DNA from: a virus
Length of the DNA: 42,793 nucleotides
IMG/VR virus record: IMGVR_UViG_3300028030_000028
Coordinates: 1-42,793 of that record
Direction: 5' to 3' (one strand)
Translations under genes and position numbers: made by a program
In this document: in pieces, positions 11,039-40,781 of the stretch
How positions within the stretch are numbered: the stretch's first letter is position 1
Layout: each line of letters starts with the position of its first letter
The notes under the pieces: generated by a model
Database searches by the model: none
What the model was told of the DNA's origin: nothing
The model's input: only the letters and a program-made list of their open reading frames with translations

Positions 11039-11069
11039 TAAAAAATATCGATAAGAAAATAAATTTTAT

Positions 11070-14171: not shown

Positions 14172-14210
14172 GGTCGTGGTCCTCCTTCATCTTTAGGCTT
14201 TATAAGTAAT

Positions 14211-14239
14211 ATTATAGCGTGTTTCAGCGAAAAAGTAAA
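14211..14239 (-). promoter_or_regulatory. Predicted sigma70 promoter P1 of the primase-helicase operon
   Basis: Minus strand TTTACT (14239-14234), a 17-nt spacer and TATAAT (14216-14211), about 40 bp before the primase-helicase ATG. Confidence 0.75.
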
Positions 14240-14360
14240 CAAATAAAATATCTAATCATTTCAATACTTTACGCATACCACACAGTGCTACAGGGTCAAG
14301 GATTTCAGTACATTTGTGGTAGTTGGCAAGGATCAAATATTCACTTTACTTTTACTCTGT

Positions 14361-14389
14361 ATTATAACATAAAAAATAGTAAAAGTAAA
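14361..14389 (-). promoter_or_regulatory. Predicted sigma70 promoter P2 of the primase-helicase operon
   Basis: Minus strand TTTACT (14389-14384), a 17-nt spacer and TATAAT (14366-14361). The hexamers and spacing are identical to P1, 150 bp upstream of it. Confidence 0.7.
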
Positions 14390-14439
14390 ACAAATAAAAT
14401 TGATACTTTTGGTCTAAATACCAGGGGGGGATGATGGTC

Positions 14440-14900
14440 CTCGAGGGCTTTTTGACGGGTATAATGGCTTAGAAAGTAAAATTTGAGCCTCGGGTTTCTA
14501 AGTACTTGAAATGATTAAGAAAAAAGTTCTCCTAAGAAATGAATTACGAAAATGTAGTGAAAATTAAGTAGCTGAAATCATTATGAAAGTTAGTATACAA
14601 AAAGGTAGTCCGTGTTTTTGTAATGATTTTAAGTACTTGGAATGTTAGGCATACCTAAAAGTAGTAATTGTAATAATTACAAGTACTTAGAGGTTTAAAA
14701 AAAAGTCTAAGGATTTCATGTACTTATGAACTGTATAAAAATTGTACAGTTGCTACGAAATTGTAAAGTACGCAAAAACAAGCACTTAGGAGTCAAATTT
14801 CATTCCTAGGCTCTTTTTTTAGCTTTAAGAGTTTTGTGTGAAAAAACTCTTATTCTATGAACTACGATATTGTAGTCCATTTGTAGTATTTTTTTTTATA
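14440..14900. repeat. AT-rich noncoding block with degenerate AAGTACTT repeats and small hairpins
   Basis: No credible gene. The palindrome AAGTACTT or near copies recur at 14500, 14566, 14631, 14681, 14719 and 14779, the first three 65-66 bp apart. Between them lie short inverted repeats: TTAGG-CATA-CCTAA (around 14645), TTGTAATAATTACAA (around 14668), AACTGTA...TACAGTT (around 14729) and AAGAGTTTT...AAAACTCTT (around 14827). Candidate replication origin or regulator-binding region. Confidence 0.6.
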
Positions 14901-14929
14901 AACTTAAAAAAGTTCTATATAGCCCCCTC

Positions 14930-15340
14930 CACTACTTTCATCAGTAATAGTGACGTCACACCCTGGAATACGCAATTTTTCAGGGCATAATTGTCCTTAA
15001 ATACTATGACAGTGATGAGTACCACATTTGTACTGGGCGAGAACAAAGTGGTACTCAAAGCCACTGGCACAGGGTATGAGGTACTGAGATCCGTGAAGTG
15101 AAAACCGGGGTATAGAATACGAGGCCTCCGGGGCACAATACACAGGACCTGGGACTACTTCGACCGACGATGATATCCACCCTGGTATTACGAGGACTCC
15201 GGGGCTAGGGGACTAATGGTGTAGATAATGGTAGGCCGATGGATAGACGGGGTTTGCCGGTAGGCTGTCCCATGGGCTGCTGGGGACTACAGGTGGGTGG
15301 GCGGGGTATATAATACATGCGAGCGAAGCGAGCCACTTAG
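14930..15340. other. GC-richer noncoding block with structured repeats
   Basis: No credible gene. It is richer in G and C than its surroundings. It contains a 9-bp perfect inverted repeat, GAGTACCAC (15017-15025) and GTGGTACTC (15048-15056), extended by TTTGT/ACAAA; a 70-bp-spaced direct repeat TACGAGG(C/A)CTCCGGGGC (around 15118 and 15188); repeated GGGACTA(C) words; and GCGAGCGAAGCGAGC near 15319. It could encode a structured RNA or be an origin element; the sequence alone does not decide. Confidence 0.5.
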
Positions 15341-15377
15341 AAAAAAAAAGATGGGAGCCAGGATCTCTCCTGACTCC
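15341..15377 (-). terminator. Intrinsic terminator after the 15386-16065 gene pair
   Basis: On the minus strand GGAGTCAGGA-GAGA-TCCTGGCTCC (15377-15354; one G-T wobble) is followed within 5 nt by nine T residues (15349-15341), 9 nt after the stop of the 117-aa gene. This is the one textbook rho-independent terminator I found. Confidence 0.88.
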
Positions 15378-15385
15378 AAGCTAGT

Positions 15386-15739
15386 TTACTTACTTGCTGT
15401 TTTCCTTCTGGTCTTGGCCTTTGGCTTGACCACTTGATTTTTGTTGAAATCAAAGTACGCATGAAGTTTGATAACTCCTTCCTGCATGCTCACGTCGACC
15501 AAGTCCTTTCGAAGATACGTGAGTTGTGAACTTACATTCTTCAAGATTTTCTTTCGGTCTTCTTGAAGCGTCTTGACCAGGTCTGGCCGAGTGGCTTTGA
15601 CCAGTTCATCAACTGTACAAATCGGATGCGCGATGATAAACTTCTTGAATGACTGGCGCCAACTGGTACCGGTTTTCTTGGTGGTGGTCATGCTCTTCAT
15701 AAACTCTTTAGCCTCAGGGGTCAATTTTGTTTCTGACAT
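15386..15739 (-). CDS. Hypothetical basic protein, 117 aa, possible membrane-anchored long form
   Basis: MSETKLTPEAKEF onward is a helical, basic protein with a Lys/Arg-rich C-terminus (KPKAKTRRKTASK), suggesting DNA or RNA binding. TTGGAGGACAAATT precedes the ATG at 15739. The frame is also open upstream to an ATG at 15811 that overlaps the stop of the preceding gene (ATGA). That longer form adds MKQFILQVWLLVGLITIIV, a clear transmembrane segment, giving 141 aa, but it has no well-placed ribosome-binding site. I favour the short form. It forms a two-gene unit with 15808-16065, closed by the terminator at 15341-15377. Confidence 0.7.
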   Translation of the reverse strand: MSETKLTPEAKEFMKSMTTTKKTGTSWRQSFKKFIIAHPICTVDELVKATRPDLVKTLQEDRKKILKNVSSQLTYLRKDLVDVSMQEGVIKLHAYFDFNKNQVVKPKAKTRRKTASK

Positions 15740-16137: not shown

Positions 16138-16200
16138 CGAAGCCCGGGGCCCCTTTATATAGGGGCTAGACCTAGGGCGGCCTGGGGGAAAACTAGGTCG
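16138..16200. other. GC-rich dyad segment between promoters
   Basis: Contains GGGGCCCC and the inverted pair GACCTAG and CTAGGTC (about 16169 and 16194). It is a compositional island between AT-rich flanks. It lies at the divergence point of the two arms. No gene is visible. Confidence 0.4.
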
Positions 16201-16238
16201 ACGGAGCGGAGCGTAGGTCATCACATATCCATTTTGAA

Positions 16239-16465
16239 TTTTGACGGATTTTAATAACAATGACTATTAATAAGGAAACCCAGACTTTTAACAGATTTTG
16301 ACAGATTTTGACAGATTTTAATAACAATGACTATTAATAAGGAAACCCAGACTTTTAACAGATTTTAACAGATTTTAATAACAATGACTATCAATAAGGA
16401 AACCCAGACTTTTAACAGATTTTAACAGATTTTAACAGATTTTAACAGTAACGACTATCAATAGC
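16239..16465. repeat. Nested iteron array upstream of terS
   Basis: Three 37-bp units starting TTTTAATAACAATGACTAT and ending GGAAACCCAGAC (16249-16285, 16316-16352, 16373-16409) are each followed by 10-bp iterons TTTT(A/G)ACAGA: three (16286-16315), two (16353-16372), three (16410-16439). A degenerate iteron precedes the first unit (16239-16248), and a fourth, truncated unit follows at 16440. The iterons put T-tracts in 10-bp phase, which predicts bent DNA. Candidate replication origin or terminase packaging site. Confidence 0.9.
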
Positions 16466-16546
16466 ATGTAGTATACTGCTTTCCGAAGCTTCTGTCACAC
16501 AAGAAAAATAAGCTTCTAAACTACTGAAATTATTACGCTTTTTCAC

Positions 16547-16575
16547 TTTACATTTTTGTAATAACGCGTTATAAT
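16547..16575 (+). promoter_or_regulatory. Predicted sigma70 promoter of the late (virion) operon
   Basis: TTTACA (16547-16552), a 17-nt spacer and TATAAT (16570-16575). A start point 7 nt past TATAAT would fall on the terS ATG at 16582, predicting a leaderless mRNA. Confidence 0.78.
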
Positions 16576-16581
16576 GATTGT

Positions 16582-17115
16582 ATGAATGTAGCAGAACTCC
16601 CATCATTTAGCAAGGCACTAGTCGCTGGAATTCGTTTTGAATACGAATTTGAGGGCCGAACTATCCCTGAGTTATCTGAAAAGTATCAGGTACACGAAGA
16701 AGAGCTCTCAGCCCTCGCGACAGACGAAGGATGGCAACACCACCTGGTATTACGAGATTCCTTTGCCACGGCTAAACAAAAGGCTAGTACTCTAACTGAG
16801 TATGCTGATCTATTACGCGAAGAGTTTACTGCCAAGTTTACGATCGCAGATATAGCTCAGCAATTAGAAAATCGACCCACATTTATACAGCTTGAAAAGC
16901 TCATAGCTGAGAAAGCCATAGAGGTAGCTAGTTCTGTTGATTCTGATGATCCTGGCGCTATACGAGCTCTTAAAGACCTCACGTCGATCTTAAGGTCTCT
17001 AAAGTCCGAACAGCCTATAGACATATCTTCTGCCGTAATTAAGGCAGTCAAACAAGATGGCGACGGAGAAGGCCAGGGTCTTCAGGTGCTTATACAGAAC
17101 CATATTGAATCTTGA
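16582..17115 (+). CDS. Terminase small subunit (predicted)
   Basis: A 177-aa protein directly before the large terminase. Its N-terminus has a helix-turn-helix-like segment (TIPELSEKYQVHEEELSALATDEGW), the middle is helical (oligomerisation), and the C-terminus is short and acidic (QDGDGEGQG), as in small terminases that recognise packaging DNA. Sequence identity to a known TerS is not visible to me, so the call rests on position and architecture. No Shine-Dalgarno precedes the ATG, and the predicted promoter places the transcript start at about the A of the ATG. The iteron array just upstream is a natural candidate for its DNA target. Confidence 0.72.
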   Translation: MNVAELPSFSKALVAGIRFEYEFEGRTIPELSEKYQVHEEELSALATDEGWQHHLVLRDSFATAKQKASTLTEYADLLREEFTAKFTIADIAQQLENRPTFIQLEKLIAEKAIEVASSVDSDDPGAIRALKDLTSILRSLKSEQPIDISSAVIKAVKQDGDGEGQGLQVLIQNHIES

Positions 17116-17150
17116 TTTTGACTACAAATCACGTTGAGGGGCGTGTGCCA

Positions 17151-17190
17151 GTTAGACCAGGAGGTCCTTCTTCCTCCCTCCTGGTCTAAC
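17151..17190 (+). promoter_or_regulatory. Perfect 14-bp motif hairpin before terL
   Basis: GTTAGACCAGGAGG (17151-17164) pairs perfectly with CCTCCTGGTCTAAC (17177-17190) around a 12-nt loop. It ends 9 nt before the terL ATG at 17200. The left arm contains GGAGG, the only Shine-Dalgarno-like sequence nearby, so folding would sequester it. No T-run follows. It could attenuate transcription or limit terL translation. Confidence 0.7.
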
Positions 17191-17199
17191 ACTTTATCT

Positions 17200-18684
17200 A
17201 TGAAAATACAGCTACCTGTCGTCAAGTTACGACCATATCAGACCAATATCTGGAACTACATGCTGCAGGATCTCCCAGGTCTTAGGGCCGCTATGGTCTG
17301 GCCTCGTCGTAACGGAAAAGACGTGGTTTGTTGTAATATTATGGCCGCCAAGATGCTTCAAAAGGTAGCTGACTACGCCTACATACTCCCCTTTCAAACA
17401 CAAGCCCGGTCAATTGTCTGGGAAGGTATCACAAACGACGGATCCCGGTTTATAGATTTCTTCCCCCCTGGTCTTATCGAACGTAAGTTAGATCAGCAGA
17501 TGAAAATTTGGTTTAAGAATGGATCTACGCTTCAGCTGGTAGGTAGTGACAACTTTAACGCTCTCGTAGGCCGGAACTTATATGGAATCATTTTCGGTGA
17601 GTATTCTATTCAAAAACCTGAGGCCTGGCAATACCTTCGACCGATGCTTACTGCTAATGGTGGTTGGGCAATTTTTCAGTTCACTCCTCGTGGTACTAAT
17701 CACGCACATGATATTTATCAGATAGCTAAGAATACCCCAGAATGGTTTTGTGAGCGCCTCACAGCTGAAGATACTGGTTACCCCTCTCGTAAAGATATTG
17801 AAAAAGAGCGCGAAGCAGGAATGCGTGAGTCCCTGATTGAACAGGAATTCTATACCTCCTTTACAGCCTCTACTGAAGAAACCATGATACCTTTAGCTGA
17901 CGTCCGGCGAGCATTTCCGGAAGTCATGCCACTTGAATCCCAGATCAGGGCTCGCGCATTCTTCTTTCCTAAAATTATGGGTATTGACCCAGCATTTTCT
18001 GCAAAGGGTGACCGAGCAGTTATCGCAGTTCGTCAAGGTCCGATTATTTATCAACCTCGTATTTTCCAAGGTATCGACCCCATGAAATTGGCCTCAGAAG
18101 GGGCCCGAGATATCAGGTTACACAGACCAGAGTGGGTATTCGTCGACGCAGGTCGAGGTGAAGCCGTATGGTCACGGCTGCATCAGCTAGGATATGAGAA
18201 CATAGTTATTCCCGTAGACTTCGGTGGCACAGCGCACTCTTCGTATTACGCTAATCGTAAGACCGAAATGTGGGACACGATGGCTCAATACTTCAAATAC
18301 CAGAATCCGGTTTTCTACCCTGGAGTTTATCAGGCCGAATGGTCAAAAGATCTCTCAGCTCCGACTGCTGAGGTAAACGAAAAGGGTCGCTTGCAGATGG
18401 AGTCCAAGAAGGCCTTAAAGAAGCGAGGTTATCGATCGACTGACCTTGGTGACTCCCTGGCCTTAACATTCGCAGAAGATTTAGATCAGGCGGACTTACA
18501 AGCTCAGGCAAAGACTGCAGCTCTCTCGCCGGAAGAGATGGCTGAACTTAGTGACGCAACCATGACTCCTGATATGGTGGCGTACCTTCAGGAGATGTCT
18601 CGTAGAATTGATCATGAAAACCTCATAGATCAACCAGCATATGATCCCTTGACGTACATGGAAAAGCATGCCGCTAACTATTAA
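17200..18684 (+). CDS. Terminase large subunit
   Basis: Packaging motor ATPase and headful or end-cutting nuclease, 494 aa. Walker A-type loop WPRRNGKD at residues 34-41; Walker B region GIIFGEYS (about 125-132), where the usual Asp before the catalytic Glu is Gly. RNase H-like nuclease acids are visible in GIDPAFSAKGD, VFVDAGRGE and DLGDSLAL. The start is set at MKIQLPVVKLRPYQ, the natural beginning of the domain. An upstream TTG at 17134 would read through the hairpin and is rejected. There is no good ribosome-binding site at 17200. The end overlaps the next gene by 17 nt. Confidence 0.93.
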   Translation: MKIQLPVVKLRPYQTNIWNYMLQDLPGLRAAMVWPRRNGKDVVCCNIMAAKMLQKVADYAYILPFQTQARSIVWEGITNDGSRFIDFFPPGLIERKLDQQMKIWFKNGSTLQLVGSDNFNALVGRNLYGIIFGEYSIQKPEAWQYLRPMLTANGGWAIFQFTPRGTNHAHDIYQIAKNTPEWFCERLTAEDTGYPSRKDIEKEREAGMRESLIEQEFYTSFTASTEETMIPLADVRRAFPEVMPLESQIRARAFFFPKIMGIDPAFSAKGDRAVIAVRQGPIIYQPRIFQGIDPMKLASEGARDIRLHRPEWVFVDAGRGEAVWSRLHQLGYENIVIPVDFGGTAHSSYYANRKTEMWDTMAQYFKYQNPVFYPGVYQAEWSKDLSAPTAEVNEKGRLQMESKKALKKRGYRSTDLGDSLALTFAEDLDQADLQAQAKTAALSPEEMAELSDATMTPDMVAYLQEMSRRIDHENLIDQPAYDPLTYMEKHAANY

Positions 18685-22861: not shown

Positions 22862-23588
22862 CGATAACACGAATCCCCAAGGTAATCCGAATCCTGCGCC
22901 GGCTCAGAACCCACCGGCTCAGAACCCACCGGCTCAGAACCCACCGGCTCAGAATCCGCCGGCTCAGAATCCGCCGGCTCAGAATCCGCCGGCTCAGAAC
23001 CCATCGGCCCAGAACCCACCGGCTCAGAATCCGCCGGCTCAGAATCCGCCGGCTCAGAATCCGCCGGCTCAGAACCCACCGGCCCAGAACCCACCGGCCC
23101 AGAATCCGGAACAAAGTCCTTTAGGAGATACCGACACCCCTGGTATGCCAGGCGATCAGACCCAGCAAGGGCTTAAAGCCCCCGAGGGCACGCCTCAGAA
23201 CATCGTGGATTGGGCAGTATCCCAAGGATTTAATCAGGCTCAGTTTGATGCAGCGATTCAGCAGTATAATACCGTTATTTCTGCACAAGCTGAGGCTACG
23301 AAAACTGAATTACAACAGGCAGGTAAAGCCAAACTTGCAGAATGGGGTGATGCGGCAGAGCGTAATCTGTCGATGGCCAAATCAGCCCTGAAAACTTATG
23401 ATAAGACCGGCGAGCTTAGTAAGCTCTTGTCTGAATCAGGTTATGGCAATCATCCTGTAGTACTTCAATTTTTTAAAGACCTGAGTGATACTCTTAAAGA
23501 AGGTGAATTCACTCCAGGTAGACCAATGTCCCGAGCTCGCAAGCAGTCAGCTGCTGAAAAGCTCTACCCATCAATGAAACAAAAATAA
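22854..23588 (+). CDS. Scaffolding protein with PAQNP repeat
   Basis: 244 aa. It is taken as the capsid scaffold because it directly precedes the major capsid gene and ends in a helical, basic C-terminus (FTPGRPMSRARKQSAAEKLY), typical of capsid-binding scaffold tails. Residues about 16-85 are 14 tandem copies of the pentapeptide PAQNP (one SAQNP). A helical region from about 110 to 215 contains the likely assembly domain (AQAEATKTELQQAGKAKLAEW). AGGAG precedes the start. The repeat is probably an expandable, disordered linker, not a folded domain. Confidence 0.8.
   Translation: MGNDNTNPQGNPNPAPAQNPPAQNPPAQNPPAQNPPAQNPPAQNPPAQNPSAQNPPAQNPPAQNPPAQNPPAQNPPAQNPPAQNPEQSPLGDTDTPGMPGDQTQQGLKAPEGTPQNIVDWAVSQGFNQAQFDAAIQQYNTVISAQAEATKTELQQAGKAKLAEWGDAAERNLSMAKSALKTYDKTGELSKLLSESGYGNHPVVLQFFKDLSDTLKEGEFTPGRPMSRARKQSAAEKLYPSMKQK
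22899..23108. repeat. 14-copy 15-bp minisatellite in the scaffold gene
   Basis: Fourteen in-frame units of the type CCGGCTCAGAACCCA, differing at third positions (CCA/CCG, AAC/AAT, GCT/GCC) and one Pro to Ser change. Higher-order blocks of similar units are visible, indicating block duplication. Long open frames on the opposite strand here are artefacts of the repeat. Confidence 0.95.
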
Positions 23589-40573: not shown

Positions 40574-40781
40574 GGGGATGCTAATGCTGTTTGTAACAGC
40601 ATTAGCAATCGTAGTTTCAGTGTTTGGAGTTCTGCAGTCATACGACAGGGAGACCGCTCAAAGAATAACTAAACTTGAGTCAGAAGTCGAGATGCTTAAA
40701 ACTTCATGTTGTGGTGAAATGTATTATAGATTTGGTCCTTCAAGAACTAATCAAAATACACCGATCGAAGGGCATCCATAA
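40563..40781 (+). CDS. Small membrane protein with coiled coil, 72 aa
   Basis: One membrane helix (MLMLFVTALAIVVSVFGVL, about residues 6-24), then a short coiled coil (ETAQRITKLESEVEMLK) and two adjacent cysteines. The start at 40563 has GAAGGAACC upstream; the open frame to 40518 lacks one. A holin-like or inner-membrane spanin-like protein would look like this, so it is the best lysis-gene candidate in the window, but no family is recognised. It overlaps the lipoprotein gene by 11 nt and the oppositely oriented helicase gene by 35 nt. Confidence 0.68.
   Translation: MRIEGMLMLFVTALAIVVSVFGVLQSYDRETAQRITKLESEVEMLKTSCCGEMYYRFGPSRTNQNTPIEGHP

Follow-up and report, generated by a model that had tools for sequence, protein, structure and literature searches.

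The region upstream of the terS-like gene in the window (the complete 42,793-bp IMG/VR virus contig analyzed here) contains a nested array of direct repeats, held at a fixed spacing from a GC-rich box that is conserved in related phages and linked to TerL. By analogy with known systems, terminase probably recognizes and cleaves DNA in this region, much as it does at lambda cosN/cosB or SPP1 pac; TerL would act at the box and TerS on the iterons. The array is best explained as the putative subunit-binding half of a composite site, of which the box would be the other half. Most likely the site represents a nested-iteron variety of terminase recognition site; we found no description of nested iterons at terS in the literature searched, which consisted mostly of non-subscription papers. 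Of three functions proposed for the array in an initial annotation, a TerS-binding packaging site is the most supported, since the array is anchored to the box and the box travels with TerL. Binding by TerS and TerL, cutting, the direction of packaging and the nature of the cut (cos-type or headful) are the parts that we infer.

The window carries the genes of a podovirus-like tailed phage, arranged in two divergent arms. The leftward arm encodes a ligase, a family A polymerase, ThyX, a DUF2800 exonuclease, a VapE-like primase-helicase and a helicase located across the contig ends. The rightward arm comprises the terS-like gene, terL and the genes for a head-tail adaptor (phrog_332), the major head protein (phrog_212), and tail and internal virion proteins. 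In G016, a syntenic relative, the ligase gene lies next to the helicase gene, indicating that the contig ends of the window are an arbitrary break and that the genome is probably near complete. The position of the break within the early arm fits circular permutation but also a replicating circle. No DNA match to the window was found among cultured phages, a search against Rfam returned nothing, and the window contains no tRNAs. Note that a further tandem array, of ~14 copies of a 15-bp repeat (22897-23108), lies within the coding sequence of a 244-aa protein preceding the major head protein gene and is likely a repeat-rich linker.

The nested array is real and far beyond chance. Its best direct-repeat score is 74, compared to a maximum of 12 among 100 dinucleotide shuffles, and scores of up to 382 were obtained with Tandem Repeats Finder. 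The initial annotation had described 37-bp units with three, two and three copies of a 10-bp iteron between them, and this is exact by coordinates. The 37-mer AATAACAATGACTATYAATAAGGAAACCCAGACTTTT is present on the plus strand at 16253-16289, 16320-16356 and 16377-16413, followed by a degenerate and truncated fourth copy, AACAGTAACGACTATCAATAG, at 16444-16464. The 10-mers, with the consensus (A/G)AC(A/G)GATTTT, occur on the same strand as a single copy at 16243-16252 (GACGGATTTT) and then in runs of three (16290-16319), two (16357-16376) and three (16414-16443). The units are spaced by exactly 67, 57 and 67 bp, so that the change in period noted earlier holds to the base. In an exact search of IMG/VR, the 37-bp unit was absent from every other contig. 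The repeats are as originally described, but the array forms only part of the conserved site, which begins at the GC box, at position 16174.

The terS-like gene (16582-17115, plus strand) codes for a 177-aa protein with a predicted N-terminal HTH followed by long helices. We take this protein to be TerS mainly from its position before terL, its identity being weak by profile and by fold. Its only profile match in the window is to a transcriptional regulator (E=0.0003), and Foldseek with the TerS model returned no significant match. The terL open reading frame spans 17134-18684 on the plus strand, with the likely start at ATG 17200. Solved relatives of TerL include gp17 of phage T4, which packages DNA by the headful mechanism; this kinship does not settle whether the site is of the cos or the pac type. 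A late promoter ~80 bp downstream of the array had been proposed, and a strong one, TTTACA-17-TATAAT, is found on the plus strand at 16547-16575, its -35 element starting at 16547, ~84 bp after the array. Most relatives have a promoter of this type before terS. The -10 element ends 7 bp before the terS ATG (16570-16584), a distance also seen in L117, L123 and L201 (4 bp in L138), and this short gap suggests that the terS mRNA may be leaderless.

The GC box, AGGGCGGCCTGGGGGAAAAC, is located on the plus strand at 16174-16193, ~50 bp to the left of the array, and was absent from the initial annotation. It ends in an A-run and is a candidate terminase cleavage element. Relatives of the phage were collected by alignment of TerL proteins (34 loci) and of TerS (one more, L201). 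Note that searches with the single TerL and TerS sequences returned zero relatives, so that alignments were needed. Twenty related uncultured phages carry the box at the corresponding location, with a consensus of roughly AGGGGGNGCCYGGGGGAAAA and the A-run always facing terS. For a leave-one-out scan, we built a weight matrix without the tested locus and ranked all sites on both strands. The box ranked first in 17 of 20 loci, was displaced by one base in two and was missed in L141. Across the 42.8 kb of the window, the box scored 20.6 and ranked first, with the best unrelated site reaching at most 11.4; in unrelated phage DNA, a score of 15 or higher occurs about once per 100 kb. The GGGGAAA columns served as the search key and thus do not constitute independent evidence, which is provided by the preferences outside these columns and by the rank test. 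A second, more distant TerL group (L047, L183, L063 and L065) carries a variant box ~1.15 kb before terL. No box is present in L142-L145 and L205, which are the most divergent of the TerL relatives (L205 is also the only locus from a prokaryote genome), and none was found upstream of terS in MW202510.

Contig ends that coincide with the box would argue for fixed termini, but we rejected them as proof because the cases are too few to decide: only contig L114 begins inside the box, and others span it. The G017 contig ends 66 bp to the left of the box. In the window, a perfect GC hairpin, GCCCC-TTTATATA-GGGGC, lies just left of the box at 16149-16166.

A second conserved element, the T-tract CATTTTGAATTTTGACGGATTTT (16229-16252, plus strand), follows the box at a distance of ~40-63 bp from the start of the A-run. 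With positions counted from the first A of this run, the T-tract is fixed at +51 to +55 in most of the 25 loci compared and frequently reads (C)AG(A)TTTTnGG; 21 loci have T at +54 and 19 have it at +53. The probability of such T columns arising by chance is ~2e-5 after correction for 95 columns if the loci are independent, and since they are related this significance is overstated. In several phages the element is part of the tandem unit itself, as in the window (AACAGATTTT), L113 (GTCAGATTTTGGAAGC), L117 (CTCAGTTTTAGAAGC) and L123 (TTTTCCAGTTTTTGGAA), and it is also found in one copy of the L129 repeat (CCAGTTTTGG).

Direct repeats between the box and terS exceeded every shuffle in the window and in L113, L117, L123, L129, L131, L134 and L138; the array of L201 was read directly from the sequence. 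Repeats in L118 were marginal and those in L140 fell within a coding stretch. No array was detected in L114, L119 (G016), L121, L124, L125, L127, L128, L135, L139 or L141. About half of the relatives contain the box without an array, and the extra copies are therefore dispensable. The letters of the arrays in the nine phages are unrelated to one another. In each of the nine, the array begins 26-54 bp beyond the A-run (mean 40, sd 9.5), whereas its end lies 52-289 bp before terS (sd 85). Thus, the arrays are tied to the box. A nested design made of other letters is also present in L201, which has four long units of ~36 bp with one, three and two short units of 14-16 bp between them, and in L123, whose first long unit contains one copy of a 17-mer and whose second contains two, giving at least three occurrences overall. 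Copy-number variation within a species was not seen, L116 and L117 being identical in this region. The gap between box and terS in L134 (1354-1563) also contains an 8-bp repeat, AGGTCAGG, in long runs totaling ~20 copies, plus 31-bp repeats. In L112, an HNH endonuclease-like gene (74-592) lies directly upstream of terS, where relatives carry the repeat site.

The anatomy and spacing of the site, with repeats (putative TerS-binding sites) at a fixed distance from a candidate cut element and upstream of terS, resemble those of lambda cos. In lambda, TerS binds the cosB repeats, the first of which (R3) is ~50 bp from the end, thereby placing TerL on cosN; this spacing is critical, and changes misplace the nicks. 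Phages lambda and 21 have cosN in common but differ in their R sites (PMC4669245, PMC4856287). The window shares with the lambda-type sites (cosN, I2 and cosB with R3-R2-R1, in lambda, 21 and N15) a GC-rich element (here the candidate cut site), an A/T-tract spacer and repeated sites that begin ~50 bp away, just upstream of terS. We also looked for a conserved candidate cut element combined with phage-specific repeats, and found this combination. Unlike the lambda-type sites, the window is without a lambda-type cohesive-end sequence, no IHF site was identified in it, and its repeats are more numerous, nested and all in one orientation. In the pac sites of SPP1 and SF6, direct repeats are located at the terS promoter, and the box at the cut is conserved while boxA is not; as a caution, the DNA-binding domain had only a slight preference for the repeats there (PMC4737164). 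Here, too, the terS promoter is accompanied by several sets of direct repeats. However, the TerS-bound segments of SPP1 lie on both sides of the cut, whereas the repeats of the window are on one side only, and array-wide intrinsic bending is unsupported in the window. The 19-nt cohesive end of P2 cos, GGCGAGGCGGGGAAAGCAC, contains a GC-rich stretch followed by GGGGAAA as in the box, a short resemblance only.

Bending had been predicted for the array in the form of curved DNA, based on TTTT tracts recurring every 10 bp. This is plausible locally, as the 10-bp recurrence is present inside each short run only, but successive runs are out of helical phase because a 37-bp unit intervenes. According to a crude vector measure of A-tract phasing at 10.0-10.5 bp, 150-bp windows starting at 16200-16475 fall between the 40th and 99th percentile of the genome, and the top-scoring window is at ~14616, not at the array. 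With phasing at 10-10.5 bp being ordinary across the array, curvature of the array as a whole is not supported.

Which gene module the site follows bears on the other functions proposed. The box was found with four unrelated types of TerS, and it is present in the near-complete genomes G017, G034 and G035, which are without the polymerase and helicase of the window phage (in G037, likewise, no helicase is present and the polymerase match is only marginal). Thus, the box goes with terL and the late genes. This argues against the array being a replication origin with initiator iterons, as had been proposed, even though an AT-rich gap with nested direct repeats, close to a primase-helicase gene, resembles iteron-type origins, which also consist of short AT-rich direct repeats in a noncoding gap. 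The box that anchors the array does not travel with the replication genes, and the array is linked to the late/packaging module instead. Moreover, the cumulative GC-skew has its minimum at 11049, where the leftward-running primase-helicase gene reaches its 3' end, 5 kb from the flip in gene direction, and its maximum at 40735, where the arms converge; neither is at the array. Next to the primase-helicase gene, a 1.2-kb noncoding region (14172-15385) holds clustered copies of TAAGTACTTG, and tandem repeats occur in the corresponding region of G016 and L117. We therefore disfavor an origin at the array and consider it very unlikely. The region at 14172-15385 is itself a candidate origin or operator region. 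The sequence AAGTACTT has only three copies in the window, all within 14500-14688, with near-copies at 14717 and 14779. It is similarly improbable that the array is slippage-generated tandem DNA in a noncoding gap, with no function of its own beside the conserved box. The absence of arrays in about half of the relatives, their unrelated letters and the accumulation of repeats in other noncoding gaps would agree with slippage; the arrays' preference for a single distance to the box, the presence of the conserved T-tract element in several repeat units and the appearance of the nested design at least three times would not.

A role as the operator array of an early/late switch has more in its favor, but is still unlikely. 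The winged-helix protein encoded at 15386-15739 or the HTH protein encoded from 16582 would bind the iterons and control divergent promoters. The array sits between the divergent arms, upstream of the strong and conserved late promoter, and the terS-like protein has its profile match to a regulator. The divergent neighbor (15386-15739, minus strand, 117 aa) is a predicted winged-helix protein, with Foldseek matches to such proteins that are not significant, and its gene is conserved in place among the relatives. A possible leftward promoter, GTGACA-17-TATACT (16470-16498, minus strand), abuts the right edge of the array. This promoter was rejected as the reason for the position of the array, since it is not conserved, a comparable one being found only in L139. 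In addition, the position of the arrays follows the box and not the promoter or the terS start, to which there is no fixed spacing, and the box is kept where other modules change. The winged-helix gene beside the site and the overlap of SPP1 pac with promoters leave some room for the initial proposal of a regulator array; the spacing of the array speaks against it. Operator and packaging roles may possibly coexist.

As a terminase site, the region might function as follows. Given an anatomy of the same kind as in lambda and SPP1/SF6, we assign putative cleavage by TerL to the box, and TerS binding to the T-tract and iterons. TerS would use its N-terminal HTH to bind the T-tract element, which lies ~50 bp from the GC box, as well as the iterons, in which this element is repeated. 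Binding of TerS would set TerL on the GC box (16174-16193), where TerL would make the first cut in concatemeric DNA, and packaging would proceed rightwards through terS and the late genes. Whole iterons would be gained and lost over time. The GC box may be held fixed because TerL is conserved, while the iterons could be rebuilt quickly, as the phage's own TerS would be their sole reader. Counting against this reading are the weak identity of TerS, the relatives with a box but no array, the missing box in the most divergent TerL relatives and upstream of terS in MW202510, and the single contig that begins inside the box. More tentatively, the site in this group of uncultured phages may consist of a near-constant box bound by TerL and a nested array bound by TerS that is repeatedly rebuilt from new letters, its grammar of long units with varying numbers of short ones being kept, such that packaging identity can shift as whole iterons are gained and lost.

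Packaging sites are known in detail from only a few cultured phages. If the reading of the region as a terminase site is correct, a GC box with a T-tract 50 bp further on would be a landmark for likely packaging starts in uncultured genomes. Nested, letter-independent arrays would make it testable how the specificity of TerS evolves while TerL and the cut site stay the same.
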